The position numbers and the translations under genes were made by a program. This document shows, in pieces, positions 155 through 51,374 of a stretch of 64,000 nt of DNA. The notes under the pieces are model-generated. The model had not been told where the DNA came from. It saw nothing but the letters and a program-made list of their open reading frames with translations, and searched no databases. Source of the stretch: Levilactobacillus yonginensis (GTDB lineage Bacteria > Bacillota > Bacilli > Lactobacillales > Lactobacillaceae); assembly GCF_003946265.1 (NCBI RefSeq), contig NZ_RHNO01000002.1:1-64000 (forward strand), in the 5' to 3' direction. Numbering within the stretch: the stretch's first letter is position 1; the number at the start of each line of letters is the position of its first letter.

Positions 155-333
155 TCTCCGGTGGTCAGGGATGGGGTCCAGCTGTGGGGACGCTTCAGCC
201 ACAAGACGGGCTTCTCGCTCGTTTTAAAGCCGCGAAAGCCCCCGTGTCTTCAAAGCCGCCCATGTCGTAAGCTAACAAAGAACGTCAGCTAACGACATTT
301 TCACTGCTGGGCCCCATCCCTGACCACCTCCAG
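155..333 (+). repeat. Structured intergenic repeat, copy R1
   Basis: The ends form an inverted repeat of about 25 bp (158-182 against 306-332). Inside is a long hairpin in which ATGTCGT (262-268) pairs with ACGACAT (292-298), and AGCTAAC (270-276) pairs with GTCAGCT (284-290) with one mismatch. A further stem pairs the regions around 220 and 250. It is closely related to the copy at 51199-51374 and more distantly to those at 44698 and 45174. It fills most of the gene-free stretch 39-489. No coding frame is apparent. Family not recognised. Confidence 0.75.
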
Positions 334-423
334 TTCGATTGAGTTGTCAGTTTTAAGCTGGTTACAAGCTATTCAATCAATCCGAAAGAGTGGTTGAAAA
401 CTAATAGATAATCGTTTAGACAC

Positions 424-454
424 CAAAAAGGACTGCGACTAACATCACAGTCCT
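424..454 (-). terminator. Terminator of the 490-1239 lipoprotein gene
   Basis: On the minus strand a 7-bp stem (AGGACTG/CAGTCCT) is followed by TTTTTGG. Confidence 0.65.
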
Positions 455-489
455 GAAAAGCGATCTCGGGGATGCACAAGGTTACGCGA

Positions 490-1239
490 TTATAGCGTTA
501 ATTTCAACCAGCCGGTCGGGCTGACGAGTTGCTTTTGATCGCCGTTGTAGGCACCAGCGAAGGCAATTTTAACTGTCTTGAACGTGGGCTTGGTCTTTTG
601 ACCGGCTAATCCGGTCGCCCAAGTGTCTAAGCTTTGGCCTGCTGGGATAGTTTTACCGGCACTGGCATCACTCAACTGGTTGGCCGCGTTTAGCTGGAGG
701 CCCTTGCGGAGTCGTAAGCTCTTGATGCCGTCCGTGATGAGGTCCTGCTTGCCACGGTTCGTGATGGTAAATTTAACCTGAATCGTGTAGTAGGGACTTT
801 GAATTTCTGGTAAATTGAGGGCTTGCGCGGCCATTCGCTTAGCGGCCGCAGTTTTCGCTGTGTTTTTGATCAATCGGACGGTAGTGACCTTGTAGGTCAA
901 CTTACCACTCTTGATGGTGGCTGCCCGGTGAGCAACTTCACTCAGTTGAACCTTAGTGCCGACCTTGTCGTAAGTGAATTGGCCAGTTTTCTTGAGGTTG
1001 CCAGATTTAACGTAACTGGGACTGGTGAGTTGATTTTTCTTTGGCTTGTACGTCTGCGCTTCCTTAGAAGATGAAGAGGCGGAGACGGCCGCGTCCGGTT
1101 TGGGGGCGCTGTAGTGGCTGGATTCTGAAGAACTATCCTTAAAACTAGCCGTGCTCTTTGACGCGTTTGACTGACAACCTGCCAATCCGAGGGCGAGAAC
1201 GCTCAGCGCTGCAAATAGCGTGGTTTTGAAATAACGCAT
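490..1239 (-). CDS. Putative lipoprotein, DUF4352-like C-terminal domain
   Basis: The 249-residue protein begins with a lipoprotein signal peptide: MRYFKTT, a hydrophobic stretch, then the lipobox LAGC with the Cys at about residue 22. It should be lipidated by Lgt and anchored outside the membrane. A Ser/Lys-rich low-complexity linker of roughly 60 residues follows, then a domain with a KFTITNRGKQDL stretch, which resembles the immunoglobulin-like DUF4352 fold found in many Firmicutes lipoproteins; that fold assignment is inference. The start at 1239 is chosen because AAGGAG sits just upstream and the signal peptide begins there; an upstream in-frame ATG at 1320 would put unrelated sequence before the signal. 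It follows the 1253-1528 gene by 13 nt and is probably co-transcribed with it. Ligand unknown. Confidence 0.75.
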   Translation of the reverse strand: MRYFKTTLFAALSVLALGLAGCQSNASKSTASFKDSSSESSHYSAPKPDAAVSASSSSKEAQTYKPKKNQLTSPSYVKSGNLKKTGQFTYDKVGTKVQLSEVAHRAATIKSGKLTYKVTTVRLIKNTAKTAAAKRMAAQALNLPEIQSPYYTIQVKFTITNRGKQDLITDGIKSLRLRKGLQLNAANQLSDASAGKTIPAGQSLDTWATGLAGQKTKPTFKTVKIAFAGAYNGDQKQLVSPTGWLKLTL

Positions 1240-1252
1240 GGTAAAACTCCTT

Positions 1253-1528
1253 TCATCCAAGTAAAATTTGATGTGGCACCAAGCGGTACCCATAGAGGCG
1301 CTGTGGTGGGGTTTGTTCAATGAAAAGGCTGGCCTGCTGGTTGACCTGTTGACTCCGTGTACGGAACTGGTCGAGTGTTAAGGGGTGGCTATTACCGGTC
1401 AGCAGGCGGAGTTGCTCAGCGCTAGTTTGCAGATCGACAATAGGTTGACGGCTACCGGCGTGTTCCCAGTAGAGCTCGAGTCCCGGATGTAGGTCGATCG
1501 TTGAGAGATTAAAATCAATGAGTCGCAT
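1253..1528 (-). CDS. Small hypothetical protein (91 aa)
   Basis: The start ATG at 1528 is preceded by TGGAGGTGG at good spacing. The protein begins MRLIDFNLSTIDLHPG, is soluble, has no signal peptide or membrane segment, and ends with QRLYGYRLVPHQILLG. I recognise no domain. Its stop lies within the ribosome-binding region of the lipoprotein gene at 490-1239, so the two are likely translated from one message. Codon use looks like that of the chromosomal neighbours. Confidence 0.6.
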   Translation of the reverse strand: MRLIDFNLSTIDLHPGLELYWEHAGSRQPIVDLQTSAEQLRLLTGNSHPLTLDQFRTRSQQVNQQASLFIEQTPPQRLYGYRLVPHQILLG

Positions 1529-1699
1529 GGGCCACCTCCACAATCATTAGCTTAACCCTAGTATACCGAACTTTGCGAGGGAACCCTAATGAATTATTTG
1601 CTAAAATCAGGTCGGGTTCGCGCCGGAAAAGTTGCGGTTTAGGCGAAAATCCCCTAAAATAGTGGACGGACTTTAATTATAGAATAGGAACGAAAAAAT

Positions 1700-2647
1700 A
1701 TGGAAATTGAATTTTTAGGAACAGGCGCCGGTTCACCGGGAAAGTTTCGCAATGTGTCTAGCACGGCGTTACGTTTGCTGGACGAACGAAACTCGGTGTG
1801 GTTATTCGACGTGGGTGAAGCCACCCAGCACCAAATTTTGCGGACGACTTTAAAGCCGCGGAAGATTGATAAAATTTTTATTACCCACTTGCACGGTGAC
1901 CACATTTTTGGACTACCGGGCTTGTTGAGTAGTCGGTCGTTTCAGGGCGGAAATTCTGCACTGACTATCTACGGACCTAAGGGTATTCGTGACTTCGTAG
2001 AGGTTAGCATGCGGGTCTCTGAGACCAAGTTATCCTATAAGATTCATTACCAAGAAATCGCTGCGGATGGGTTAATCTTTGAAGACGATAAGTTTCGAGT
2101 TTATGCGCAGCATCTGGATCACAAAATTGAATGTTTCGGGTACCGCGTGGTTGAAAAGGATCACCCAGGTGAACTGCAGGTTGATAAGTTGCGGGAAGCC
2201 AAGATTCCGTCTGGACCAGTGTACGGCAAGTTGAAGTTGGGCGAAACGGTAACGTTGCCTGATGGACGGACGATCAACGGTCAGGACTTCCTCGGGCCAG
2301 CCCAACCAGGCCGCATCGTGGCCTTACTGGGTGATACCCGTCAAACGAAGAATGCCGAGCGGTTGGCTAAGGATGCCGACGTGTTAGTTCACGAAAGTAC
2401 ATTTGCCAAGGGCGAAAGCAAGTTGGCGCGGTCGTATTACCACTCCACCAACATCCAAGCGGCTGAACTGGCTAAGCGGATGCACGTGAAGATGCTCCTG
2501 TTAAACCATATTTCTGCGCGTTACACTGGGAAGATGGCGCAAGACCTGCAACATCAGGCACGAGAAATCTTCCATAACACGCGGGTCGTTAAGGACTTTG
2601 ATGAGGTGGACGTGCCGTTTCAAAAATTGACCACAAAGGGTGACTAG
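1700..2647 (+). CDS. rnz: Ribonuclease Z (tRNA 3' endonuclease)
   Basis: This 315-residue protein belongs to the metallo-beta-lactamase tRNase Z family, which removes 3' trailers from tRNA precursors lacking an encoded CCA. Visible hallmarks are the N-terminal [10 protein letters not shown] strand, the zinc-binding [13 protein letters not shown] motif near residue 60, the GDTR segment near 212 and the downstream [10 protein letters not shown] histidine motif. Length matches bacterial RNase Z (about 305-315). The tRNA-Ser gene in this window lacks an encoded CCA and is a plausible substrate. The start is an ATG with AGGAACG upstream. It overlaps translation signals with the following LapA-like gene (2-nt gap). 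Confidence 0.95.
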
Positions 2648-2649
2648 CA

Positions 2650-3039
2650 ATGAAAAATCAATGGCGAATTGTGCTTACAATCTTATTGGTAATTGTTGTG
2701 GCGGTATTTGCGATTCTAAACGTGGAAAGTGTGCCGGTTTCATTTGGCTTCACGACGGTTCACTGGCCACTGATCCTGGTTTTACTGGTATCGATCTTAA
2801 TCGGTGCAGTGCTGATGATTCTCTTCTCGAGCATCAACGCCTTTCAACACAATCGGGCTTATAAAGACCTGGAGAAGACCAGTGACGACCGGATTGCAGC
2901 ATTGAACGCCGATAATGAACGTTTGACGAAGCGCCTGCAAAACTCGAAGAGTAAGCAGGTCGCTGGCCAACAAGAAAAGCAGATTCAGGACCTGAAAGCC
3001 CAGATTACCGACTTACAGGAAAAATTAGCAACTAAATAG
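2650..3039 (+). CDS. LapA/DUF1049 family inner-membrane protein
   Basis: The 129-residue protein has two N-terminal transmembrane helices (about residues 7-24 and 39-60) around the short VESVPVSFGF loop typical of the LapA_dom/DUF1049 family. A charged coiled-coil tail follows (about 75-129, heptad-like KQIQDLKAQITDLQEKLA). In Gammaproteobacteria LapA (YciS) with LapB assists LPS control, but Gram-positive members have no established job. The gene starts 2 nt after the rnz stop, using AAAGGGTGA inside the rnz end, so translation is coupled. A terminator follows directly. Confidence 0.8.
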   Translation: MKNQWRIVLTILLVIVVAVFAILNVESVPVSFGFTTVHWPLILVLLVSILIGAVLMILFSSINAFQHNRAYKDLEKTSDDRIAALNADNERLTKRLQNSKSKQVAGQQEKQIQDLKAQITDLQEKLATK

Positions 3040-3049
3040 CTTACGAACG

Positions 3050-3088
3050 AAAGAGTGGTGCCATTGACACCGCTCTTTACCGTTTTTT
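3050..3088 (+). terminator. Terminator between the lapA-like gene and recJ
   Basis: An 11-bp stem (one T-G pair) with loop CCATTGA is followed by CCGTTTTTT. It lies only about 20 nt before the recJ start, so it could also act as an attenuator for readthrough into recJ. Confidence 0.7.
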
Positions 3089-3109
3089 AAAGGAAAGGAT
3101 GGTTTGCTG

Positions 3110-5425
3110 GTGATTGCCGCACAGTACAAATGGAACATTAAAAACGTCGATCAACCGTCGTCAGAGGCGCAAGCCCTAGCGGAAACGGAAAAGATTTCAC
3201 CAATTGTGGCGCAAATTTTGTGGAATCGTGGCTACCAGACCCCGGCAGCGGTGCACGAATTTCTGAATCCAGGTCCAGAACAGCTGCATGACCCGAACCT
3301 GTTACACGATATGGCCAAGGGGACTGCCCGTATCGAAGAGGCAATTGGTGCAGGCCAGCAGATCACCATTTACGGCGATTACGATGCCGATGGTGTGACG
3401 AGTACGTCGATCCTTTATGAAACGCTCAATGAGATGGGTGCCAACGTAAATTACTATATTCCTAACCGATTCACGGACGGATATGGGCCTAACGTGGCTG
3501 CATTCCAAAAGTTGATTGCAGCGGGGACCCAGTTATTTGTCACGGTCGATAATGGGGTGGCAGGTAACGAAGCGATTGACGTGGCTAATGCGGCTGGCGT
3601 GGACGTAGTCGTGACCGACCATCATGAGTTGCCGGCCGAATTGCCAGCCGCCTACGCCATCATTCATCCGCGTTATCCAGGGGCTGAATATCCATTTGGC
3701 GGTTTGTCCGGTGCGGGGGTAGCCTTCAAGGTGGCCCAGGCATTGCGGGAGGAAATTCCGCAAGACATGCTCGATCTGGCGGCCATTGGAACCGTTGCGG
3801 ATTTGGTGCCGTTAGTCGATGAAAACCGGGTCCTGGTCTACTTTGGGTTACAGTTGCTGCAGCAGGATGAGCGACCGGGTCTACAGGCATTAATGAAGGG
3901 GGCTGGCATTAAACCTGAAGAATTGACCGAACAGTCGATTGGCTTTGGGATTGCGCCCCGCTTAAACGCCCTAGGACGGTTAGTCGATGCGACGCCAGCG
4001 GTTAAATTGTTAACGACACTGGATGATACGGTGGCCAATGAGTTGGCTCAGGAGACTGAACAAAAAAATCGTCACCGTCAAGAGTTGGTCCAGCAAATCA
4101 GTGACAGCGCATTGGCACAAGCCACGGATGCCGATCACGCGCAGCGGCCAACGTTGATCATAAGTGGCCACGATTGGCACGAAGGTGTGTTGGGAATCGT
4201 GGCTAGTAAGGTGGTCGAACAAACGGGCAAACCCACTTTAGTCGTGAACATCCAGGATGGTCGGGCCAAGGGGTCGGGCCGGAGCGTGGATGCATTCAAT
4301 CTGTTTACGGCGTTAGATGGTCATAGAGACCTGATGACAGCATTTGGGGGCCATCACATGGCGGTGGGGCTAACGGTCCCTGAGGCGCAACTAACGGCCT
4401 TAGCTGACGCCTTAGATGTGGAAGCTGGCAAGCAGAAATTAACCGAGAGTGGACCTAGTGAATTGCCAGTGGCGGCTTCGGTGAGCGTGGCGGCGATTAC
4501 GCCAGCACTCTTCCAAGAGTTAGCCAAGATGGCGCCATTTGGGACGGATAATAGTCAGCCACTGTTTGCCTTTGAGTCGGCTAGTCTGACACAGGTGAAG
4601 GCGATTGGTAAAGATCACAGTCATCTGAAATTTCAGCTGCAGGAGGGCGCCCATCAGCTCAATGCCATTCAGTTTGGTGCTGGGGCCCACGTTCCTGAAT
4701 TAACGGCGGCACCGGATCAGGCGGCTGTGTTGGGGGCGATTGAAGATAACGTCTGGCAGGGCCGGCATTCATTGCAGCTCATGGTCAAGGACCTGAAGCT
4801 TTCTGCAGAGACAGTCGTGGATGCCAGAACCAACCGGGTTCATCAGGCGATGTTCAAGGATGCGGGGACCTATATTTTCTTCCATCGGAATATTTTTCAG
4901 CAATTGCGTGATCAGGTTCCAACTGGCAGTCAGGCAATCCTGTATGATGGAACGGTTCAAACGGCGCTGCCCACTGATACCGCGGTGTTTGTGATTGATT
5001 GTCCCGACGCAACGAGTGATCTGGAGACCGTTTTACAGCAATTACAACCGGCGAAAGTCACTGCTTATTTGTACAAGAAGGAAAGTCTTTCGCAATTAGG
5101 GATGCCAACTCGCGCGCAATATGCTAAACTATTTAAGTTCATTGCTACGCATCAACAAGTCGATGTTGGGCATCAGCTAGCGGAATTGACCAAATTTTTA
5201 CAAATTCCGCGAACTCAGTTAGTCTTCATGATTCAGGTCTTCTTCGAATGTGGCTTCATCACAATCGAGCACGGCATGATGAATGGTGTGGCGCATCCTG
5301 AGCATAAGGAATTAACGACGGCGCCAAGCTACCAACTAAGACAGCAGCAGGTACAGACGGAAGCGGACCTTTTACTTTGCCCGTCCGCCGTACTCAAGCA
5401 GCGTCTTCATGCCCCATTGAACTAA
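3110..5425 (+). CDS. recJ: Single-stranded-DNA-specific exonuclease RecJ
   Basis: This is a DHH-superfamily 5'-3' exonuclease acting in recombination and mismatch/base-excision repair. The [15 protein letters not shown] motif I lies near residue 87, the diagnostic DHH (VVTDHHELP) near 169, the DHHA1 motif [10 protein letters not shown] near 410, then an OB-type domain. The roughly 200-residue C-terminal extension is usual for Firmicutes RecJ (B. subtilis about 785 aa) and absent from E. coli. The start is uncertain: GTG at 3110 has the best spacing from AAAGGAT; TTG at 3104 is the alternative. apt follows closely, as in many lactobacilli and in the B. subtilis recJ-apt pair. Confidence 0.95.
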
Positions 5426-5448
5426 AATTAAAGGAGCTACTTAAACTT

Positions 5449-5967
5449 ATGGCAACTGATTTTACGAAATTTATTGCAAGCGTACCGGATTACCCAGAAA
5501 AGGGCATCATGTTCCGGGACATCTCGCCATTAATGGCTGATGGTGAGGCTTTTCACGCCGCAACCAACGAAATTGTGGCTTACGCTAAGGACAAGGGTGT
5601 TGAAATGGTCGTGGGTCCAGAAGCCCGCGGCTTTATCGTGGGTTGCCCAGTGGCTTACGAAATGAATATTGGGTTCGCACCAGCTCGTAAGCAAGGCAAG
5701 TTGCCTCGCGAAACGGTCAAGGCAACCTATGATCTGGAATACGGTCAATCAGCCCTATACATGCACAAGGATGCCATCAAGCCTGGTCAACGGGTATTGG
5801 TGACTGACGACTTGTTAGCTACCGGTGGGACCATTGGTGCTACGATTCAATTGGTCGAAGACCTGGGTGGTATCGTGGTCGGTACAGCATTCTTGATCGA
5901 ATTAAAGGACCTTCACGGTCGTGACAAGCTGAAGGGTTACGATATCTTCAGTTTAATGGACTACTAA
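5449..5967 (+). CDS. apt: Adenine phosphoribosyltransferase
   Basis: Apt salvages adenine by condensing it with PRPP to AMP. The 172-residue protein has the family N-terminus ending [14 protein letters not shown], the purine-site segment [11 protein letters not shown] and the PRPP-binding loop [13 protein letters not shown] near residue 120. The ATG at 5449 is chosen because AAGGAGC stands upstream and the family begins there; longer in-frame readings run back into recJ. It lies 23 nt after recJ, consistent with one transcript ending at the strong hairpin at 5966. Confidence 0.97.
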
Positions 5968-6026
5968 AAACAAAAAATGGTGGACCGCCTCGAAACATTG
6001 AGGCGGTCCACCATTTTTTGTTTTTA
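5966..6026. terminator. Bidirectional terminator between apt and the MFS gene
   Basis: A 26-bp perfect stem whose outer arms are A-rich and T-rich, with an 8-nt loop, sits between convergent genes. It can end apt on the plus strand and the MFS gene on the minus strand. Confidence 0.9.
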
Positions 6027-6110
6027 ACAGTATCGATGAGTAGATTGGGACTGTGTATTTGTCTAAATTTGATTGGTATTGAAGAGTGGTTAACATTTCG
6101 AGGGGGAAAA

Positions 6111-7289
6111 CTACTCGGCAATCAGACCGTGCCGCTGAATAAGGACGCCCGTGAGGCTCAGGAGGGCCGCAAATAGCGCTAGGAGGCTGATAACGGGCAA
6201 CCAGGTACCTAATCGACTCTGGAGATAGCCGAATAGTAGCGGCCCTATAGCGGCTAATAGATAGCCTGCAGACTGGGCCATCCCGGAGACGGCCGCAGTT
6301 TGGATGGGATTGGTCGTCTTCTCCGTGAAGAAAAGCACGGCTAAGTTGAAGGCTACCCCGGCGCCAACGCCAATGGTCAGAGAGCAGAGGGTTAGCCAAC
6401 TGAGGTCGTGCGTCGGCAGAAGAAAGCCCAGCGGAGCGATAACGTACCCCAGGGTCATGAGAGCAATCAGCCAGCTGACGCCGTGGCGTTTGTTGAAGAG
6501 AAAGGGAACTAAGAATGAGAGTGGCAGACCGCTGATTTGCAGGATGGTGAGGAGGTTACTGGCCGTTAAAGCGGGGATGTCGTGCGCACTGAGCATACCG
6601 GGTAGCCAGGTGACAAAGGAGTAGTAAACGAGTGCTTGGAGGCCGAAAAATAGGGTGATCAGCCAGCCAAGTGGTTGATGCCAGACACTTTGATAGTGGG
6701 TTTGAGATTGGGGATGGTTAGTGGTCGTTGTCGTGGTGGGTCGACGGAGGTTGGGAATCCAGGCAAGCGCGGCCACGATACTTAAGACGGATAACCAGCC
6801 TAACGTGGCCTGGAGGCTGATTTGGCCAATTAGAAAGCCGGCTGCGGCGGTGCCTAAAGCGCCAATTAGTAGCATCGCGAGGGTGTAGAGGCCGGTCCCC
6901 ACATTGACACGATCGGGCATGTTTTCTTTGATTAAGGCAGGAATCAGGACGTTGCCACTGTCGACACCGATGCCGATCAAAAAGGTCCCACAGAAGACGG
7001 CCGCCACGGTGGGAATCAACCGGAGGTAGCTGCCAATGATCAGTAAAAGAAACAGGCTGAAGACGGTCCAGGAATTACCCCACCGTTGCGCTAACTTCAC
7101 AATAATGGGTGAGAAGATGGCAAAGGTGACCAACGGAATCGATGTCAGTAGGCCACCCATGGCACTGGGCAGCGCCAACGCGTGCTCAATCTTGGGCAGG
7201 AGCGGTGGAATGATGGTGATGGGGAGCCGTAAATTGGCCGCTATCAGCATCATGCTGACCAGAAACCAGGGTTGTTTGGAACGTGACAA
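6111..7289 (-). CDS. MFS transporter, CynX/NimT family
   Basis: This is a 392-residue polytopic membrane protein with about 12 predicted helices. The start (ANLRLPITIIPPLLPKIE) carries the pattern of the cyanate/nitroimidazole transporter subfamily, where a small-molecule anion or drug moves by secondary transport. A His/Asn/Thr-rich cytoplasmic loop (TTTTTTNHPQSQTHYQS, near residue 200) separates the two halves. The initiator is TTG at 7289, supported by AGGAGGGATT immediately upstream. It is transcribed alone and convergent with apt. The substrate cannot be read from sequence; cyanate use is not implied because no cyanase gene is nearby. Confidence 0.85.
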   Translation of the reverse strand: MSRSKQPWFLVSMMLIAANLRLPITIIPPLLPKIEHALALPSAMGGLLTSIPLVTFAIFSPIIVKLAQRWGNSWTVFSLFLLLIIGSYLRLIPTVAAVFCGTFLIGIGVDSGNVLIPALIKENMPDRVNVGTGLYTLAMLLIGALGTAAAGFLIGQISLQATLGWLSVLSIVAALAWIPNLRRPTTTTTTNHPQSQTHYQSVWHQPLGWLITLFFGLQALVYYSFVTWLPGMLSAHDIPALTASNLLTILQISGLPLSFLVPFLFNKRHGVSWLIALMTLGYVIAPLGFLLPTHDLSWLTLCSLTIGVGAGVAFNLAVLFFTEKTTNPIQTAAVSGMAQSAGYLLAAIGPLLFGYLQSRLGTWLPVISLLALFAALLSLTGVLIQRHGLIAE

Positions 7290-7393
7290 AAGAATCCCTC
7301 CTAAAATAAGTCATCAGTCAATTATAAGCTGAATCGTAGTTGAAAGGAAAGGTTGAAAAGATTGGGGAGTCATTAGTTAAATGAAAGAATAGA

Positions 7394-7420
7394 ATAAAAA
7401 AAAGAGCCAGTCAATGGCTC
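7394..7420 (-). terminator. Terminator of uspA
   Basis: The stem GAGCCA/TGGCTC with a 5-nt loop is followed on the minus strand by eight T, with the stem ending 11 bp past the uspA stop codon. Confidence 0.75.
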
Positions 7421-7430
7421 CCCAGCAAAA

Positions 7431-7883
7431 CTATGATTTGGCAGATTCACTATCGTTGACAACGAAGACGTTGGGACGGGCGTGTTGGACAACATAGTTG
7501 GTGGTTGAACCAACCACCATCCGGGAAAAGGCGTTGGTTCCGGACTTACCAATGACGATGAGGTCAATGGCGTCAGCGGGACTATTGGCGATTTCGACGA
7601 TATGTTGCTTTGGTGAACCGTCACTTTGGAGAATTGTCGTTGGAATGTCACTGTCGGCGGCCATGGCTTGGGCGTCCGTGAGAATCTGATGACTGGCCTT
7701 ACGCATTGCGGAAACGACTTCGTTGTAGCTGGCGCCAAGACCACCGGAACTGACCTGGGTGATGTCATCAATGTGGAGTAGAACTAGTGAAGCATGCCAA
7801 TCTTTGGCTAACCGAATGGCTGTCTTCAGGGCCTCAATCGAGTTACTGGATCCATCAAGTGGGACTAATAATCGTGAGTACAT
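7431..7883 (-). CDS. Universal stress protein, UspA family
   Basis: The 150-residue protein has the UspA alpha/beta fold: N-terminal YSRLLVPLDGSSNSIEAL with the nucleotide-facing Asp, then the C-terminal ATP-binding signature VIGKSGTNAFSRMVVGST, close to the G-2x-G-9x-G(S/T) pattern, so ATP binding is likely. Such proteins support survival of stress and acid in lactobacilli, mechanism unknown. The ATG at 7883 is preceded by AAAGGAGGT at ideal spacing; longer readings start in untranslated leader. About 135 nt upstream is the minus-strand hairpin 8018-8057. Confidence 0.9.
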   Translation of the reverse strand: MYSRLLVPLDGSSNSIEALKTAIRLAKDWHASLVLLHIDDITQVSSGGLGASYNEVVSAMRKASHQILTDAQAMAADSDIPTTILQSDGSPKQHIVEIANSPADAIDLIVIGKSGTNAFSRMVVGSTTNYVVQHARPNVFVVNDSESAKS

Positions 7884-8017
7884 GCTGAAAACCTCCTTTA
7901 GGAAAAATAAGTGAACAACGCTATTGTTGATGAAGGTAGCGTAAATGACGTTCATCTAAGAAGAAAAATATGCTGGGAGGGCAAATTGACAGCCCTTTCA
8001 AAGCCAGTATAACAAAC

Positions 8018-8200
8018 AAAAGGCACCGACCCAAGTTGTGTTGGGACAGTGCCTTTACGGTAATATTGATTAATCAGTTAATGGGGTGAATTGGCTAAAC
8101 AGTTGCTAAGTAAGCGGTTGATAGGTGCAGAGTATTTGGGTAAATGTAAACTGTAAGTAGCGAACGAAGATAGACCGTTTGGCGATTTAGCCTATAAGTA
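8018..8200 (-). ncRNA. Possible small RNA or leader upstream of uspA
   Basis: The 406-nt space between uspA and the TIR-like gene has no credible ORF. On the minus strand a TATACT -10-like box lies near 8200. About 150 nt later comes a strong hairpin (8018-8057: AAAGGCAC/GTGCCTTT outer, CCCAA/TTGGG inner) followed by TTTTGTTTGTT, i.e. a terminator-like end with no gene before it. GGCTAAA and TTTAGCC segments in between could pair. Lactobacillales usp genes are known to carry a conserved upstream RNA (the lacto-usp motif, suggested to be 6S RNA). Whether this is that motif needs a covariance-model search. Confidence 0.3.
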
Positions 8201-8290
8201 TAGTATTCATAAGAAATAAACATTAATGTAATGGTTTTGACTCACGTGGGGCATACAATAGACCTAATTCAGCGAGAGGAGACGAAAGTG

Positions 8291-8689
8291 ATGAGTGATT
8301 TGTTTGTGAGTTATCAATCGGCAGATCCGTTGGCGCATTCTGTACAGGTGCGGTTTCACCAGTGGGCGAGTCACAATTGGGATTTTCCGACGGTGAGTTT
8401 TCATGAACAGGAACCGCCTGTGAGGTTTACAGAACGGGGAGCGGGCCGTATCAAACGTGAATTGTTGCGGGAAATTAAACGGTCCCAGCAATTATTGGTC
8501 ATGATTAGTCGGACCACTTGGCAGTCGGAATGGACGGATTGGGAAATTTCTATGGCGTTGGCTCACGATAAGCAATTGTTGGCGGCTAAACTAGATAGTA
8601 CGAGTATTGTGCCACTGGGATTGTTGAGTACGAAACCGGTGTGGATTGATCCATTTGACCCAGTTATGCTAACGCAACGGAGATTTTAG
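8291..8689 (+). CDS. Stand-alone TIR-like protein (ThsB/MTH538 type)
   Basis: The 132-residue protein starts DLFVSYQSADPLAHSVQV and continues with a central RIKRELLREIKRSQQLLVMI strand/helix and the motif WQSEWTDWEISMALAHDK. This is the layout of TIR-like folds of the ThsB/DUF1863 group, where the Glu in W-x2-WEI is the candidate NADase/cyclase residue. Thoeris ThsB proteins sense phage and make a cADPR-type signal for ThsA. No ThsA is visible nearby, so a Thoeris role is only an inference. The ATG at 8291 is preceded by GAGGAGAC at 8-nt spacing. It is a single-gene unit immediately before tRNA-Ser, a usual site for acquired DNA. Confidence 0.65.
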   Translation: MSDLFVSYQSADPLAHSVQVRFHQWASHNWDFPTVSFHEQEPPVRFTERGAGRIKRELLREIKRSQQLLVMISRTTWQSEWTDWEISMALAHDKQLLAAKLDSTSIVPLGLLSTKPVWIDPFDPVMLTQRRF

Positions 8690-8743
8690 CAAACGGGGCT
8701 TGCATTTATATTCATAATTGGTAGAATAAATAAGTAATCACTT

Positions 8744-8831
8744 GGAGAGTTGGCAGAGTGGTAATGCAACGGACTCGAAATCCGTCGAACCGGCTAATAC
8801 CGGCGCGCAGGTTCAAATCCTGTACTCTCCT
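8744..8831 (+). tRNA. tRNA-Ser (anticodon CGA)
   Basis: The acceptor stem GGAGAGT pairs with ACTCTCC. The anticodon arm is ACGGA-CTCGAAA-TCCGT, giving anticodon CGA (codon UCG). The long variable arm CGAACCGGC...GCCGG-type hairpin is that of a class II serine tRNA. The T arm is GCAGGTTCAAATCCTGT. No CCA is encoded, so RNase Z plus the CCA-adding enzyme are needed. The discriminator position reads T rather than the usual G of serine tRNAs. Confidence 0.95.
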
Positions 8832-43100: not shown

Positions 43101-44510
43101 GGGGACTACCAACCGATCGCCCATAACTACACCAAGGTGTTGTTCGGTGAAAAGAACGTGTATCGGGCCGGAACAATTGGTACTGTGGCAGATAAGACGG
43201 CTTACGGGTACGTGAAGGCCTACGAGCGTGACACGGAGCAGACGTTCCGGGGCGCAGAAATTGACCGGCTGGCCAAAGGGGCGACCGGGGTCAAACGGAC
43301 GACCGGGCAACATCCCGCGGGGATCATTGTTGTGCCAGATTACATGGATATTTACGACTTTACGCCGATCCAGTATCCGGCCGATGACCAAAATGCCGCT
43401 TGGCAAACGACCCACTTTGATTTCCATTCGATTCATGACAACATTTTAAAAATTGATATTCTGGGACATGATGATCCCACGATGATCCGGACACTGCAGG
43501 ATTTGTCGGGGGTCGATCCTCAGACCATCCCAATGGATGACCCGGGTGTCATGGCATTGTTCTCCGGGACGGATTCATTGGGTGTGACGCCAGAACAGAT
43601 TCAGTCTAAGACGGGAACACTGGGTGTGCCTGAATTTGGTACGCGGTTCGTGCGGGGGATGCTGGAAGAAACGCATCCTCAGAACTACTCACAATTGCTC
43701 CAAATTTCTGGTTTGTCTCATGGGACCGACGTGTGGTTGGGGAATGCCGAAGAATTAATTAAGAACGGCACCGCCACCATTGCCAACGTGATTGGTTGTC
43801 GGGATAACATCATGACCGACTTGATCAACTTCGGTCTCGATTCCGAAACGTCGTTCCAAGTGATGGAACACGTGCGGAAGGGTCGCGGAATCCCGGATGA
43901 ATGGCAGGACAAGATGAAGGCGACGGACTGTCCAGACTGGTACATTGATTCTTGTTTGAAGATCAAGTATATGTTCCCCCGGGCGCATGCCGCTGCTTAC
44001 GTGTTGATGGCGTTACGGGTGGCCTACTTTAAGGTCTACTTCCCAATCATTTACTACGCAGCTTACTTCTCTGTGCGGGCGGACGACTTCGATGTCGTTG
44101 CCATGTCTCAGGGGAAAACGGCGGTTAAGGCTGCCATGAAGGCAATCACTGACCAAGGAATGGATGCGTCGACTAAGGACAAGAACCTATTGACGGTTCT
44201 AGAACTGGCCAATGAAATGCTGGAACGGGGCTACAAGTTCAAGATGATTGATTTGGATAAGTCCGATGCGGCCGACTGGATCATTGACGGCGATACGTTG
44301 ATTGCACCTTTCCAGTCAGCCCCAGGGTTAGGCTTGAACGTTGCCAAGCAAATCGTGGCTGCGCGAAATGACCGTGCATTTATCTCAAAGGAAGACTTAG
44401 CCAAGCGAGGCAAGGTCTCCAAAACGATCATCGACTTCATGACGGAAAATGGTGTGCTGAATGGCTTACCAGATGAAAACCAATTGAGTCTATTTGACGA
44501 TATGATGTAG
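40179..44510 (+). CDS. polC: DNA polymerase III alpha subunit, PolC type
   Basis: PolC is the Gram-positive replicative polymerase with built-in proofreading. The 1443-residue protein shows, in order, an N-terminal domain, an OB fold (about 235-325), PHP part 1 ([18 protein letters not shown] near 340), the inserted DEDDh exonuclease ([12 protein letters not shown] near 425 to [10 protein letters not shown] near 565), the second PHP part, the palm with [12 protein letters not shown] near 967, and a four-Cys zinc site (CPKCQ, CPNCG near 912-945). The C-terminus is LSLFDDM. GTG at 40179 follows GAAAGGAGTT. Confidence 0.98.
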
Positions 44511-44580
44511 CGAGCAGTAAACACCGCGACAATATTTGAAGAAGGAAAAGACGTTTGCGATTTTGTCACAGACGCCACAG

Positions 44581-44622
44581 AAAGGTTCGACTTAGCAAGC
44601 TGCTGAGCCGAGCCTTTTTTGC
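44581..44622 (+). terminator. Terminator of polC
   Basis: A 17-bp stem with a few wobble pairs (AAAGG...AGCA against TGCT...CCTTT) is followed by T6. Confidence 0.85.
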
Positions 44623-44697
44623 ATGGTAGTAAAGACGTTATTAAGCCAAGAATAGTAAGGCATTATAGACTTAAAATTAGCCTCACTCAGCCACATA

Positions 44698-44868
44698 CGG
44701 CTGCCAGAGATTCCGCCTGCTGTGGGGAACGCCTCCGGCCTGAAAATCAGTCCTTCGGCTCGGTTTGAAGCCTGGAAAAATCACCAGTCTCCAAACACGT
44801 CCCACGCTGTATGCCGAAAATCGGCTAACACCGTTGACACAGCTGGCTCCACCTCTGACCGCCTCCGG
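44698..44868 (+). repeat. Structured intergenic repeat, copy R3
   Basis: It has the same layout as R1/R2 with diverged sequence: CTGTGGGGA, a stem GTTTGAAG-CTGG (44763-44775) against CCAG-CTCCAAAC (44784-44796), then GCCGA/TCGGC (44813-44825) flanked by TGT/ACA, and a terminal GACCGCCTCCGG. It is paired with the inverted copy R4 about 305 bp away. Confidence 0.7.
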
Positions 44869-45173
44869 TTAAACGATTCTTGGAAACTAAGCTAGCTTAA
44901 AAGCCTGGACAGCAGCACTTACGCAATATTATTGGCGCTCAACAAGGTAGCCGAGAGTGAGTCAAATTTGGCGAACGGTAAAGCTGCAATTTCCCACTAT
45001 GTATGCCGAACCCCAATATCCAATCCTCGTTGCATCAGGTACGGTGGGTGTTTCAGTGCTTTCAGTTTTTAGCACATATGTTATTTTGAAGTGGATAATC
45101 AACGTTACAAGCGTTCAGACGACCAATTTGTTATGGTAGTTATCCCAGTGAGCAATGAATTGACTAACGTAGC
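44869..45173. other. Segment enclosed by inverted repeats R3 and R4
   Basis: About 305 bp between the two repeat copies. A plus-strand frame from ATG 45002 or GTG 44957 to 45139 would encode a small protein with one hydrophobic stretch (ILVASGTVGVSVLSVFSTYV). No ribosome binding site supports it, so it is not called as a gene. Confidence 0.35.
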
Positions 45174-45350
45174 CGCAGGAGGCCAGGGATGATGGCCACT
45201 GTGTCGACGGTGTTAGCTGGTGGGTTACCAGCTTACAGCGTGGGACGGCCTTGGAGACCCGGTGATTTGCCGGGGCTTCAAGCCGAGGGAAAAGACCGCA
45301 CTATGGCTTTCCCCGGTCCCCACAGTGGCCGTCAGCCCTGGCAGCCGGAG
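45174..45350 (-). repeat. Structured intergenic repeat, copy R4 (inverted)
   Basis: The minus strand aligns along its length with R3. Stems are CCCGG/CCGGG (45258-45274), AGCTGGT/ACCAGCT (45215-45233) and an extra GGGGAAAG/CTTTTCCC. The ends carry the family inverted repeat. Its stem sequences differ from R2 and R3 but stay complementary. Confidence 0.7.
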
Positions 45351-45400
45351 GCGGCAATCCCTCAATTGTCATTAATTAAACAAACCGTGATAAAATAGTC

Positions 45401-45416
45401 TTGTAAACGCTTACAA
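45401..45416. promoter_or_regulatory. CcpA cre site
   Basis: TTGTAAACGCTTACAA is a perfect 16-bp palindrome that fits the catabolite-responsive element consensus WTGNAANCGNWNNCW. It covers the -35 of the promoter at 45410-45438, so binding of CcpA-HPr-P should repress. Confidence 0.85.
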
Positions 45417-45438
45417 AACCGGCAATTCGTGATATACT
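45410..45438 (+). promoter_or_regulatory. Promoter of the 45494 gene
   Basis: CTTACA (-35), 17-bp spacer, TATACT (-10). Confidence 0.6.
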
Positions 45439-45493
45439 ATGAGTGAGGAATGAAAAGACCATTAATAAACTCTAACGAAAGCGGGTGTTCACC

Positions 45494-45769
45494 ATGCTAC
45501 GACATTTCGTAAGATTACCAGATGGGTGGATTTTTCTGGCAGGTTATTGTTTGATTGGTTTAGGTTACATTTTGTTCGGACTCTTGGCCAACGTTGGTGA
45601 AGCGACCTTTTTAGCCATGGTGATCGCCTACTTCGTGGTGGCGTTCATCCTGACCCTCATCAAGACGTTTAGTTTGAAGGCAATGAATTCGACGCGACTG
45701 AATTTCTTGGTATTTGAATTTATTACAATTGTCGGCTTCGTTTTGCTCCTGCTCACTTGCGAGGCGTAA
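45494..45769 (+). CDS. Small three-TM membrane protein under cre control
   Basis: A 91-residue membrane protein with three helices (about 12-31, 38-60 and 72-88), beginning MLRHFVRLPDGWIFLAGYCL. I recognise no family. ATG at 45494 is preceded by AAAGCGGGTG; a GTG at 45485 is the alternative. The cre palindrome over its promoter suggests expression when preferred sugars run out. It stands between the polC repeats and the rimP operon and seems to be transcribed alone. Confidence 0.65.
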   Translation: MLRHFVRLPDGWIFLAGYCLIGLGYILFGLLANVGEATFLAMVIAYFVVAFILTLIKTFSLKAMNSTRLNFLVFEFITIVGFVLLLLTCEA

Positions 45770-45781
45770 GTGGTGGAACAG

Positions 45782-45810
45782 TTGCAATCACGGGGAAACT
45801 GTAGTAAAGT
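45782..45810 (+). promoter_or_regulatory. Putative rimP operon promoter
   Basis: TTGCAA, 17-bp spacer, TAAAGT. Confidence 0.5.
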
Positions 45811-45839
45811 TGTGTTTGTAGTTAAACTCGTTTTTAAAT

Positions 45840-45868
45840 GAGTGAGCAGTCAATGCTCACTCTTTTTA
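45840..45868 (+). terminator. Hairpin with T-run before rimP
   Basis: The stem GAGTGAGC/GCTCACTC with a 7-nt loop is followed by TTTTT. It ends 28 nt before the rimP start and lies after a candidate promoter, so it may attenuate the rimP-infB operon as well as end the 45494 gene. Confidence 0.75.
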
Positions 45869-45895
45869 ATGGAAAAATGTAGGAGGCGGAATTCT

Positions 45896-46369
45896 TTGAG
45901 TACTGTCGTCGAGACCGTGACGGCCTTAGCCCAGCCAATCGTGGCGCAGCATCAGTTTGAGCTAGTTGACGTTGAATTTGTTAAGGAAGGTAAGAGTTGG
46001 TACCTGCGGCTCTACATTGATAAGCCCGGTGGTATCAACATCGAGGAATGTGCAATGGTCAGTGACGAGGTGTCCGAAAAAATGGACAGCCTCGATCCGG
46101 ATCCAATTCCTCAGGCCTACTTCCTGGAGGTATCCTCACCAGGTGCCGAACGACCACTGAAGAAACCAGAAGACTTTGAAAAGGCCGTGGGTGATTACAT
46201 TCACGTCTCCCTCTACCAAAAGATTGGTCAGAGCAAGGTCTATGAAGGAACACTGTTGACATTGACGGATGAAAGCATGGATCTTAAGGTTAACCTGAAG
46301 GGCCGAATCAAAACCCTGACGATTCCTCGTGATAACATTGCCCAGGCCCGTTTAGCCATCAAGTTCTAA
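45896..46369 (+). CDS. rimP: Ribosome maturation factor RimP
   Basis: RimP assists 30S assembly. The 157-residue protein has an N-terminal alpha/beta domain ([20 protein letters not shown], then [20 protein letters not shown]) and a C-terminal SH3-like domain after [18 protein letters not shown] at 45896 is chosen because AGGAGGCGG stands 8 nt upstream; longer readings run into the hairpin at 45840. First gene of the rimP-nusA-ylxR-ylxQ-infB-rbfA operon. Confidence 0.95.
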
Positions 46370-46391
46370 CGAATAAGGAGCGAAGCAAAAC

Positions 46392-47621
46392 ATGAGTAAA
46401 GAATTATTGGGGGCGTTAGACGTCCTGGAAACGGAAAAGGGTATCGATAAGCAAATCGTTATTGACGCTCTGGAAGCCGCTTTAGTTTCTGCTTACAAGC
46501 GGAACTACGACCAAGCCCAAAACGTTGAAGTCAATTTTGACCCACGTAAGGGTGATATCCACGTCTTCGCCGTTAAAAAAGTCGTTGACCAAGTCTACGA
46601 TTCTCGCTTGGAAGTTGGCTTAGATGAAGCACTGACCATCAACAAAGGTTATGAATTAGGCGATGATATCAAGTTCGAAGTTACGCCTAAGAACTTCGGC
46701 CGGATTGCTGCACAGACTGCTAAGCAAGTTATCTTGCAACGGGTTCGTGAAGCCGAACGGACGATTATCTACGATCAATACAGCCAATACGAAAATGAAA
46801 TCGTCACTGGTGAAGTTGAGCGTCAGGACTCCCGTTTCGTTTACGTGAGTTTGGGTAAGGTCGAAGCCGTAATGGGTCGTCAGGATCAAATGCCTAACGA
46901 AACCTACCGGATTCATGACCGCATCAAGGTCTACGTGACGCGGGTCGAAAACGCCACCAAGGGTCCCCAAGTCTTCGTTAGTCGGACGCACGCTGATTTG
47001 TTAAAGCGTTTGTTTGAACAAGAAGTCCCTGAAATTTACGACGGGACGGTTGAAATCATGGCCATCGCGCGTGAAGCCGGTGACCGGGCCAAGGTGGCTG
47101 TTCGTTCGAACAACCCCGACATTGACCCCGTGGGAACCAGTGTTGGTCCTCGTGGGCAACGGGTCCAAACCATCGTCAACGAACTCGGTGGCGAAAACAT
47201 GGATATCGTGGAATGGACGGATGATGAAGCGAAGTTTATCGCTAACGCGCTGAACCCAGCCGAAGTTTTGGATGTCATTTTTGACCCCAACAACGAACGG
47301 GCTTGTGAAGTCGTTGTTCCTGACTATCAATTATCCTTAGCCATTGGTAAGCGGGGCCAAAATGCCCGGTTAGCCGCTAAGTTGACTGGATATAAGATTG
47401 ATATTAAATCAGAATCAGAAGCATCTGCTATAATGGAAGCTGATCAGGCACCTACTGACGACGCTGCCACGGAAGATGCTGGCGATGAGGTAAGCGCAAC
47501 GCCTGATGACGTAACGCCTAGCGAAGCCACGACTGACGACGTTACACCAGATGAAGATGATGCACCAGCAGCGGCAGAGTCAACTAGCGAAGCCACTGAT
47601 GATGATCAGTCTGCAGAATAG
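46392..47621 (+). CDS. nusA: Transcription termination/antitermination protein NusA
   Basis: NusA binds RNA polymerase and RNA and tunes pausing and termination. The 409-residue protein has the N-terminal polymerase-binding domain, an S1 domain (about 135-200), and KH1/KH2 (DPVGTSVGPRGQRVQTIVNE and SLAIGKRGQNARLAAKL). The KH domains end near 345. A tail of about 65 residues rich in Asp, Glu, Ala and Thr follows, common in lactobacilli but of no known fold. ATG at 46392 follows AAGGAGCGAAG. Confidence 0.97.
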   Translation: MSKELLGALDVLETEKGIDKQIVIDALEAALVSAYKRNYDQAQNVEVNFDPRKGDIHVFAVKKVVDQVYDSRLEVGLDEALTINKGYELGDDIKFEVTPKNFGRIAAQTAKQVILQRVREAERTIIYDQYSQYENEIVTGEVERQDSRFVYVSLGKVEAVMGRQDQMPNETYRIHDRIKVYVTRVENATKGPQVFVSRTHADLLKRLFEQEVPEIYDGTVEIMAIAREAGDRAKVAVRSNNPDIDPVGTSVGPRGQRVQTIVNELGGENMDIVEWTDDEAKFIANALNPAEVLDVIFDPNNERACEVVVPDYQLSLAIGKRGQNARLAAKLTGYKIDIKSESEASAIMEADQAPTDDAATEDAGDEVSATPDDVTPSEATTDDVTPDEDDAPAAAESTSEATDDDQSAE

Positions 47622-47648
47622 TTTACATCTGAAGGAGGGTTAAGACCC

Positions 47649-47945
47649 ATGAAACAACGGAAGATCCCCATGCGCAAGGACATTGTGACCGGGGAAATGG
47701 CACCAAAGAAGCAACTGGTCCGGGTCGTTCGCAACCAGGATCAAGAAGTTAGTGTTGATCCTACTGGGAAACAATCCGGGCGTGGTGCCTACATCTCTTT
47801 GGACGTAGACATTGCTAAGCGGGCCAAGAAGGAACGGACTTTTGACCATACCTTTGGTGTTAAGATCGATGACCAGTTTTACGACGATTTAATCGCTTAC
47901 GTTGATCATCAGCAAGCACGGCGGGAATTATTTAACAATGACTAA
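47649..47945 (+). CDS. rnpM: YlxR-family RNA-binding protein (RnpM)
   Basis: A 98-residue protein of the YlxR/DUF448 family with the conserved RKIPMRKDIVTGEMAPKKQL and SGRGAYISLDVDIAKRA. The B. subtilis protein has been reported to bind and inhibit RNase P RNA (hence RnpM). ATG at 47649 follows GAAGGAGGGTT. Overlaps ylxQ by 8 nt. Confidence 0.9.
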   Translation: MKQRKIPMRKDIVTGEMAPKKQLVRVVRNQDQEVSVDPTGKQSGRGAYISLDVDIAKRAKKERTFDHTFGVKIDDQFYDDLIAYVDHQQARRELFNND

Positions 47946-48240
47946 TGCCGAGCAAGCTTTACAATTATTAGGATTGGTCCGGCGAGCAGGTAAATTGGTT
48001 ACCGGCGAATCCTTCGTTTTAGCCGCTGTGCGGGATTCTTCTGCCAAGTTGGTCTTACTGGCTAGTGATACTGGTAAGAGCAGTCAGAAGCAATTTCGTG
48101 ACAAGACAACGAGCTATAACGTCCCGTTGAATGAATCATTTACCAAAGACCAGTTGAGCACGGCCATTGGGTCCGCGCGCACGGTCATAGCAATCACCGA
48201 TCCGGGATTCGTCCGGAAAATGCAACAACTACTTCAGTAA
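47938..48240 (+). CDS. YlxQ, L7Ae-family RNA-binding protein
   Basis: A 100-residue L7Ae/L30e-type kink-turn-binding protein: QALQLLGLVRRAGKLVTGES, then KLVLLASDTGKSSQKQFRDK. Its RNA target in Firmicutes is not established. ATG at 47938 overlaps the ylxR stop; longer readings would start inside ylxR. Located, as usual, between ylxR and infB. Confidence 0.9.
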   Translation: MTNAEQALQLLGLVRRAGKLVTGESFVLAAVRDSSAKLVLLASDTGKSSQKQFRDKTTSYNVPLNESFTKDQLSTAIGSARTVIAITDPGFVRKMQQLLQ

Positions 48241-48287
48241 CCATCTGACGTTCTCGTGATCGGCCGAAAATTAAGGAGTGTGAAGAT

Positions 48288-50744
48288 ATGGGGAAGAAGC
48301 GAATCTATGAACTCGCAAAAGAAATTAACGTCTCCAGTAAACAGATCATCGCGAAAGCCGAAGAAAAAGGCTTTCCGGTGAAAAACCACATGTCAACGCT
48401 CGGCGATAACGAAGAACGTCAACTGCGGGCAGCCTTTCAACCAAAGGCTGCGGGGTCTAAACCAGCTGCCAAGCCACAGGCTAAGCAACCGGTCAAGACT
48501 GAGGCAGCGCGCCCCGCAAACCAGGGTGGTCACACGAAGGGTAACGCCACGACTCATCAGAACAATCATGGGTCGCAAGCGTCACCTAATCGGCAGAATA
48601 GCCACACCAATGGGAACCAGAGCCAAAACAAAGGTAACGGTAACCAGCAGAACCACAGTACTGGGAACCGGAACCAAAGTCAGGGAACTGGGAACCAAAA
48701 TAATCGTAACAACAATAAAAATAATGGCCAGGCCGGGAGTAATCATACTGAACAACATAATTCCGGCACCGGCAGATTTGGTGGAAGTTTGAATAATAAT
48801 ACAAATAATAGCAATGGCCGGCGGAGTAGCAGTAACAGTACCAACAGTCGCGGGGGCCGGAATAACCGGAACAACCGCAATAACCGTCGCCGTAATAACA
48901 ATAATAATAACCGTTACAAGAAGAACCAACGGATCAAAGACACAAACCAACACAAGGGCGCGCCAGAACGTAAGAACAAGGCTTTACCAGAAACCTTACT
49001 CTACACTGATGGCATGAACGCTCAAGATTTGGCAAAAATCTTACACCGTTCATCAGCTGAAATCGTGAAGAAGCTCTTCATGCTGGGTGTGATGGTCAAC
49101 CAAAACCAATCTCTGGACAAGGATACGATTGAGATCTTGGCTGATGACTATGGCATCAAGGCTGAAGAAAAGGTTCAAGTCGATGTTTCTGACATCGATA
49201 AGGCCTTTGACGCCGAAATGGCTAACACTGACCACTTAGAATCGCGGGCACCAGTTGTCACAATCATGGGACACGTTGACCATGGTAAGACGACGCTGTT
49301 GGATCACTTACGTCATTCTCACATCACTGAAGGCGAAGCTGGTGGGATCACGCAGGCCATTGGTGCTTACCAAGTCCACTACAACGACAAGTTGATTACG
49401 TTCTTGGATACGCCAGGACATGCTGCCTTTACTGAAATGCGTGCGCGTGGTGCCGAAATCACCGACCTGACTGTGCTGGTAGTTGCCGCTGATGATGGTG
49501 TGATGCCACAAACCATCGAAGCCATTCACCATGCGAAGGCTGCCGGAACGCCAATCATCGTGGCGGTCAACAAGATCGATAAGCCGGGTGCTAACCCGAA
49601 CCACGTCATGGAACAATTAACGGAATACGAATTGATTCCTGAAGACTGGGGTGGCGACACCATCTTCGTTGAAATCTCAGCGAAGTTTGGCAAGAACATC
49701 GATGAATTGCTCGACATGATTCTCTTACAAGCCGAAGTGCTTGAATTGAAGGCTAACCCAGACCAAAATGGTGCTGGGAACGTCATCGAAGCTCGGTTGG
49801 ACCAAGGTCAAGGTTCCGTTGCCACATTGTTGGTTCAACAAGGGACCTTACACGTTGGGGATCCTATCGTTGTTGGGAACACCTTTGGGCGTGTTCGGAC
49901 GATGGTTAACGAACGTGGTCGGCGGATCAAAGATGCCGGTCCATCGACGCCAGTGGAAATCACTGGGTTGAACGACGTGCCAGAAGCCGGGGACCGTTTC
50001 GTGGTCTTTGACGATGAGAAGACGGCACGGGCCGCTGGTGAAGAACGGGCTAAGGAAGCCTTAGTCAAGGAACGGGGCAATACCAACCACGTGACCTTGG
50101 ACAATCTCTTTGATTCCCTTAAGGAAGGCGAAATGAAGGAAGTTGACGTCATCATCAAGGCTGACGTTCAAGGTTCCGTTGAAGCCTTGGCAGGTAGTTT
50201 GAAGAAGATCGACGTTTCTGGCGTGCGGGTCAACATCATTCACTCTGCCGTTGGGGCCATCAATGAAAGTGATGTCACGTTGGCAGAAGCCTCTGACGCC
50301 ATCATCATTGGGTTCAACGTTCGTCCAACACCACAAGCACGGGCTCAAGCCGACAGCGACAAGGTCGACATTCGCCTGCACAACGTCATCTACAACGCCA
50401 TCGATGAAATCGAAACGGCGATGAAGGGGATGCTGGAACCTACTTACGAAGAAGAAGTTACTGGCCAAATTGAAGTTAAGAACATTTTCCACGCTTCTAA
50501 GGTCGGCACTATCGTCGGTGGGATGGTTACTGAAGGTTACGTGACGGCTGACGCCGACGTTCGTTTGATTCGGGACGGCGTGGTCATCTATGAAGGTAAA
50601 CTTGGTAGCTTGAAGCGTTTCAAGGACGACGTCAAGCAAGTTAAGATGGGTTATGAATTAGGATTAACTATCGAGAACTACAACGACATCAAGGTAGACG
50701 ACGTTATCGAAGCCTACGTGATGAAGGAAGTTCCCGTTAAATAA
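48288..50744 (+). CDS. infB: Translation initiation factor IF-2
   Basis: IF-2 is the GTPase that brings fMet-tRNA to the 30S subunit. The 818-residue protein has an N-terminal IF2N motif ([20 protein letters not shown]), a low-complexity Asn/Gly/Ser/Gln/Arg linker (about residues 50-215), a second IF2N motif, the G domain with [13 protein letters not shown] near 327, DTPGHAAF and NKIDKPG, and the C-terminal domains ending [15 protein letters not shown]. The Asn-rich linker is strongly biased. ATG at 48288 follows AAGGAGTGTG. Confidence 0.98.
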
Positions 50745-50763
50745 AAATCGGAGGCAAACGTAA

Positions 50764-51114
50764 ATGGCACAATATCGAGTTGGCCGGTTGGAACAAGAAA
50801 TCCAACGGGAAGTTACGGATATTCTACTAAAACGTGTTCGCGATCCTCGGGTCGAGGGTGTCACCGTTACCGGCGTGGAAGTCACTGGTGACTTGCAACA
50901 GGCAACGATTTACTACAGTATTTTGTCTGATAAAGCCTCGTCTGCAGAAAAAACGCAGCAGGGGTTAAACAAGGCTACTGGCCTGATTCGTTCAGAATTA
51001 GGGTCTCGTTTAAGCATCTACAAGACGCCTGAACTGAATTTCGAACAGGATTCGTCTGTTCGTTACGGTAGTCATATCGATGAACTGTTAAGCGAACTTC
51101 ACCACAAGGACTAA
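50764..51114 (+). CDS. rbfA: Ribosome-binding factor A
   Basis: RbfA is a KH-type 30S maturation factor. The 116-residue protein has YRVGRLEQEIQREVTDILLK, the RDPRVEGVTVTGVEVTGDLQ core and FEQDSSVRYGSHIDELL. ATG at 50764 follows ATCGGAGGCAAAC. It ends the operon before a terminator. Confidence 0.97.
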   Translation: MAQYRVGRLEQEIQREVTDILLKRVRDPRVEGVTVTGVEVTGDLQQATIYYSILSDKASSAEKTQQGLNKATGLIRSELGSRLSIYKTPELNFEQDSSVRYGSHIDELLSELHHKD

Positions 51115-51133
51115 CCGGTGCAGTTTCACCACG

Positions 51134-51168
51134 AAAGGCGTTGATCTCAGCGGATCGGCGCCTTTTTG
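51134..51168 (+). terminator. Terminator of the rimP-rbfA operon
   Basis: AAAGGCG...GATC against GATC...CGCCTTT (two wobble pairs), followed by T5. Confidence 0.85.
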
Positions 51169-51198
51169 GTTGCTCAGCTATCTTGTCAATTGCCCGCA

Positions 51199-51374
51199 CT
51201 CCGGTGGCCAGGGATGGGGCCTGCTGTGGGGACGCTTCAGCCAAAAGGCGGGCTTCTCGCTCGATTTGAAGCCACGCAAATTCCGTGTCTTCAAAGTCGC
51301 CCGTGGTTTAAGCTGGCAGAAAATCGCCAGCTAACACCACTATCACGGCCGGCACCATCCCTGGCCGCCTCCGG
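51199..51374 (+). repeat. Structured intergenic repeat, copy R2
   Basis: Closest to R1. Terminal inverted repeat 51201-51224 against 51348-51374. Internal stems are TTTGAAG-CACG (51265-51276) against CGTG-CTTCAAA (51284-51295) with a single C-T mismatch, and GTGGT + AGCTGGC (51303-51317) against GCCAGCT + ACCAC (51326-51340). It sits between the rbfA terminator and truB; no ORF. Confidence 0.8.

Follow-up and report, generated by a model that had tools for sequence, protein, structure and literature searches.

The four repeats R1 to R4 in the window, a stretch of 64,000 nucleotides from the start of contig NZ_RHNO01000002.1 of Levilactobacillus yonginensis, belong to a family of palindromic DNA modules with three arms and a length of about 175–190 nt, often found as facing pairs. 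Judging from sequence comparison, two decayed MITE copies, of a kind bounded by CTRAAGGTTGAAAG, contain R2 and R3 as modules, and R4 is a separate, older free-standing copy without IS4-type ends. In the explanation that we favour, to which we give a probability of about 0.6, facing module pairs in Levilactobacillus would also be flanked by IS4-family transposon ends, forming MITEs of about 600 bp that would be moved by an ISPepr1-type transposase acting in trans on the CTRAAGGTTGAAAG ends. These MITEs would insert into A+T-rich intergenic DNA with a 7-bp duplication, and modules, whether MITE-borne or free, would preferentially be found beyond the ends of genes, in many cases immediately behind a terminator. 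Modules would be deleted precisely between the short direct repeats that bound the hairpin, as expected of slippage at palindromes, while their fold would be kept at the DNA level as a hairpin or cruciform; the modules may also aid the spread of the element. The family, its pairing, the MITE and its duplications, an IS with matching ends, the precise losses and the covariation are read from the sequences themselves.

All four copies reported by the earlier note were confirmed when the window was read, and a covariance model placed them, a few bases off the earlier coordinates, at 156–333 (R1), 51199–51374 (R2) and 44695–44868 (R3) on the forward strand and at 45173–45350 (R4) on the reverse strand. 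The four align with 78% mean column identity, and the constant C-T mismatch noticed in the TTTGAAG stem is kept in 119 of 139 modules. Each copy folds more stably than 200 of 200 dinucleotide shuffles (z of -9.7 for R1, -5.9 for R2, -3.4 for R3 and -6.2 for R4). The 175-nt element is a real repeat, but it is an internal module rather than the mobile unit, and the full unit is larger than the earlier note saw; likewise, the terminal inverted repeat of about 25 bp is present, but as the base of the hairpin and not as a transposon end.

As a blastn query, R2 found 42 places in its own genome. A covariance model built from 33 copies, whose E-values are rough, found at least 150 copies in the 2.69 Mb of that genome (weakest listed E-value 1.3e-10) and matched 31 of 151 sampled genomes of the Lactobacillaceae, representing 9 of 40 genera. 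In an order-level sample, searched with stricter filters at which weak matches are lost, 7 of 246 genomes matched, all from the same family. The repeats had been called unrecognised, and this fits the searches made: a tRNA was the single Rfam match in the window at the gathering threshold, ten loci gave no Rfam match at a permissive threshold, and R2 gave no blastn match to plasmids or phages. The repeats are abundant in these genomes and we found no description of the family in the full-text literature; in the accessible part of one paper (PMC2267715), Lactobacillus johnsonii is named in a table only.

Pairing was surveyed in 829,864 bp of the window's genome, in regions chosen for containing copies. 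The 302 rows returned by the covariance model gave 199 modules, of which 143 score at least 80 bits, after 103 rows were dropped as weaker opposite-strand readings of the same places. Among these modules there were 73 pairs of close neighbours (less than 450 bp apart), 64 of which face each other, none of which point apart and nine of which are in tandem; 128 of the 199 modules belong to a facing pair. When both modules were required to score at least 80 bits, the counts were 32 facing, 0 apart and 4 tandem. By simple ORF calls, the flanking ORFs of 54 two-module pairs were convergent in 26 cases, codirectional in 24 and divergent in 4, and because all three settings occur, a pair is not merely two modules that each follow a gene end. 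By similar ORF-based gene calls, 95 of 140 modules come after the 3' end of an ORF in the same orientation. A terminator-like site was found just upstream of 53 of these 140, compared with 13 at mirrored positions, 15 downstream on the same strand and 22 upstream on the other strand. Between widely spaced modules, the three cases inspected by eye contained ordinary-looking host ORFs.

We distinguish three types of module, A, B and C, named by the module flanks; R3 belongs to type B, R4 to type C, and R2 lies inside a MITE with a CTAAAGGTTGAAAG-type end. A type B element runs from an end, CTAAAGGTTGAAAG, through module 1, a spacer and a diverged inverted module 2 to a second end, and the edges of type C are the conserved TGGCCGC and CTACATTGG. 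Eleven elements of types A and B in the window's genome lie between two ends, eight of them 567–600 bp and three 268–353 bp long. With at most one mismatch, the MITE end matched this genome 49 times, versus 2 for a reversed control. With at most two mismatches, it stood upstream of 8 of 16 type B, 3 of 34 type A, 1 of 40 unassigned and none of 52 type C modules, and the reversed end stood upstream of one unassigned module and of none of types A, B or C. When three mismatches were permitted within 150 bp upstream, the count for type C was still 0 of 52. Since few modules have an end upstream, the MITE accounts for a minority of the copies in the window's genome. Bacterial fold-back MITEs and the efar repeats of Enterococcus faecalis are likewise short, non-coding and intergenic with inverted-repeat ends; by description, the Levilactobacillus MITEs are set apart from them by two facing three-armed modules and by recurrent exact loss.

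The suggestion that the repeats are a non-autonomous mobile element applies in part: R2 and R3 are inside MITEs whose ends match those of an identified IS, whereas the 175-nt unit itself is not such an element and R4 has no such ends. Well-preserved MITE copies are about 600 bp long with 7-bp target duplications, and the clean duplications around copies in genome G158 are ctgagat, ttgcttt, taagtaa, tttacgc and attgcaa. Mapping of empty sites, as had been proposed, succeeded for a module-less MITE of the window's own genome (L257), which is absent from genome G178, where its target is present in a single copy. In G158, duplications persist around some copies that lack module 1 and around one that lacks both modules, and the modules may for this reason be dispensable or later lost. 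Genome G161, from a related species, contains an intact IS of 1559 bp, with both ends identical over 15 nt and the duplication ctgattaa, which encodes a 450-aa transposase with a Y..R...E......K motif that is assigned to the IS4 family by NCBIfam NF049925 (470 bits against a cut-off of 250). The tips of well-preserved MITEs match the ends of this IS over 14–15 nt, one with a mismatch, and about 15 terminal nt is all that the compared MITE and IS ends share. As the covariance model detected no module at the IS locus, the parent IS does not itself carry the module pair.

The ISPepr1 subgroup of the IS4 family is described, in the available part of the source, as having lengths of 1500–1600 bp, YT-AA-YTT---A ends and 7–8-bp duplications (PMC2266710). 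As far as that description goes, the G161 IS resembles it in length, in its CTAAAGGTTGAAAGT ends, in a duplication of 7–8 bp and in YREK spacing, and differs by one mismatch, having G rather than Y at position 7 of the end consensus. It also differs from the MITEs, which carry a pair of structured modules where the ISPepr1-type IS has none in its locus. The two together provide a MITE–parent pair for an IS4 subgroup in food bacteria. In G053, nine contigs stop 54–56 nt into an element that has the same tip; they fall into two continuations (five and four), a pattern as expected of a long repeated IS. A search of 1.23 Mb of the window's genome (overlaps counted) revealed no IS4 transposase, and one IS-end pattern was absent from the whole genome at up to three mismatches. 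On plasmids, there were two partial matches (38 of 56 nt) to one IS end and none to the other, with no transposase annotation beside the one of the two matches that was examined. Relatives of the transposase occur on 161 plasmid records; the best, from L. plantarum, is 69.5% identical, with no annotated gene at the place examined. Two internally deleted relatives of the IS, L370 in G163 and L372 in G176, retain a single end together with the C-terminal portion of the transposase.

Within the window, R1 is a single module that groups with type A by score. No transposon end was recognised near it, the best flank match having 5 of 14 mismatches, and its left neighbour lies outside the contig, which begins at window base 1. 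The type B MITE remnant that holds R3 would extend over 44632–45072 on the forward strand, according to an alignment of 15 type B copies with the start set by eye. R3 is its module 1 by both the covariance model and the type B alignment, its left tip is not recognisable, and its right inverted-repeat end is at 45059–45072 on the reverse strand, with three mismatches to CTAAAGGTTGAAAG. The element has orthologues in genomes G174 and G178, which retain module 2 between two repeat copies, TCAAATTTGG and TCCAAATTTGG; comparison with them identifies the unstranded scar TCAAATTTGG at 44962–44971 as the site of the lost module 2. R4 is a stand-alone module that does not belong to the R3 MITE and occupies the same position in three species. 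The decayed MITE holding R2 occupies 51178–51536 on the forward strand, directly past the rbfA terminator (located by eye). The covariance model and species comparison both make R2 its module 1. Its left tip has decayed, and an end-pattern search placed its right end, CTAAAGATTGAAAG, at 51523–51536 on the reverse strand with one mismatch. Each of these two MITEs thus keeps its right end only. The G178 orthologue of the R2 MITE, which is without the module, has visible duplications, TTGCTCTG and TTGCTCAG. All copies had been said to lie just past operon ends. This is true of R2, 85 bp after the rbfA ORF, and of R3, 185 bp after polC, but not of R4, which lies 135 bp before the next forward ORF (94 aa, without a family match).

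Comparison of orthologous loci, covering the fetched parts of G174 and G178, points to recurrent module losses whose limits coincide exactly with the short direct repeats on either side of the hairpin. Between rbfA and truB, R2 is present in the window's genome, only its left arm is found in G174, the nearest genome compared (TruB 98% identical), and in G178 the module is missing exactly between two CTCCGG repeats. Between polC and rimP, R4 is present in all three genomes, and module 2 of the R3 MITE, present in G174 and G178, was lost from the window's genome exactly between two (C)CAAATTTGG repeats. One type C module is missing in G178 exactly between its bounding repeats, and other sites in that genome contain a leftover arm or a fused remnant of a module. 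In G158, module 1 has been deleted from four of ten aligned copies, with CCGGAG repeats as the exact limits, and one of the four is also without module 2; as two of the four look closer, when the alignment is read by eye, to different full-length copies, the loss of module 1 seems to have recurred. With their repeated exact deletions, these large natural palindromes make hairpin instability and selection on a fold at the DNA level testable.

The stems had been said to covary, and they do. In a test on 139 modules, with an alignment that was fitted to one with a structure drawn from the same family and a null in which substitutions were replayed at random columns along a Fitch parsimony tree, 23 of 15,225 column pairs exceeded every score of six null alignments. 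Sixteen of the 23 are within the 51-pair structure, two extend a stem and five fit neither. Among these paralogues, 322 changes were two-sided between paired states versus 372 one-sided changes out of the paired state, the latter comprising 149 to A-C, 97 to G-U and 126 to other mismatches. Among orthologues, 16 comparisons were tried and two were dropped for low identity (one site, in both orientations), leaving 14 orthologous module pairs, 0.83–0.96 identical between species, with 711 stem pairs. Six of these pairs had changed on both sides yet stayed paired, and 65 differed one-sidedly between a paired and another state (25 A-C, 16 G-U and 24 other), which suggests decay more than upkeep at fixed loci. 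Because of the paired changes among paralogues, the fold appears to be kept in the lineages that spread. We infer that the fold is selected in spreading lineages, at the DNA level, and decays slowly in fixed copies.

REPINs are described, in the part of the source available, as extragenic pairs of a palindromic repeat, inverted around a spacer, showing compensatory changes, with singlets as remnants (PMC3116915). On that description our modules, extragenic inverted doublets with compensatory changes, are similar, and differ in that each half is about 175–190 nt with three arms, that pairs are about 360–750 bp long, that types A and B can have IS4 ends and duplications, and that no Y1 transposase, as judged by PF01797 matches, lies beside the modules. 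We put forward, as a tentative and less likely reading, that in several genera of Lactobacillaceae facing pairs of these hairpins spread independently, as a REPIN-like system several times larger and without RAYT, read as folded DNA by a hypothetical enzyme and captured between IS4 ends in Levilactobacillus. A narrower version, which we consider doubtful, would make the type C pairs a giant-REPIN-like mobile system with inverted structured ends, an unimportant spacer and a mover enzyme left unnamed, from which types A and B arose by later capture between IS4 ends. Such a system would agree with the facing arrangement of 12 of 12 close pairs in 22 loci from other genera, with the type C edges and their want of IS4 ends, and with the module-free IS. 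Only 15 of 64 spacers are related to another spacer, those read carrying type B sequence, as an unimportant spacer might predict; the unrelated spacers also mean, however, that most pairs were not recently copied as a unit. Against it, target duplication around 41 pairs gave no signal above permuted pairs, and many pairs combine different module types, as judged by flanks. None of the genome's five matches to PF01797 (Y1 transposase) has a module within 1.5 kb on each side (less at contig ends), which also gives no support to the REP/IS200-like origin offered in the earlier note.

The same covariation, together with the strong folding, could reflect a structured RNA, or the leader of one, with the fold selected on one strand. 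Standing cells on the reported strand show more A-C than G-T (247 versus 150, at 30 versus 13 positions), which amounts to a weak wobble excess on the complementary strand. Stem changes on the reported strand, however, show no preference for G-U over A-C, a terminator-like site precedes 53 of 140 modules, facing pairs put their two modules on opposite strands, and Rfam has no match. The covariation is significant, but a strand-specific RNA is not favoured, and we regard it as quite improbable. A domesticated host function, for example as a boundary between transcription units, that keeps modules at fixed loci is unlikely. The identity of the 14 orthologous modules and the excess of convergent over divergent settings would suit it, and in 10 of 12 pairs between the window's genome and G178 the modules show higher identity than their 3' flank; yet they surpass the 5' flank in just 5 of 12, losses recur at orthologous sites, and compensated changes are few. 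Palindromes are prone to template switching, which by correcting imperfect palindromes could produce covariation without selection, and the two-sided changes common among paralogues are what it would leave. As correction would be expected to erase the C-T mismatch that persists inside a covarying stem, we consider this explanation very improbable. The MITE reading, with selection on folded DNA, is the one that we retain.

Several minor observations concern individual loci. A G158 copy, L292:4724-5617, is an 894-bp MITE with about 340 bp of coding-like foreign sequence within module 1, as seen by eye, and looks as if it had captured a piece of a gene. At an orthologous site (L065:14167-14344 versus L280:5145-5318), the module in G178 is oppositely oriented and has low identity, and modules may for this reason be replaced or inverted in place. 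The sequence TGTAAACGCTTACA, at window positions 45402–45415 between R4 and the next forward ORF, resembles a catabolite-response (cre) operator. Across the genus, a module is found within 1 kb downstream of polC in 11 of 30 loci, and within 600 bp upstream of truB in 8 of 30 (one weaker match uncounted), with positions and orientations that vary at both genes. These polC- and truB-adjacent sites may be insertion hot spots or old sites with turnover.
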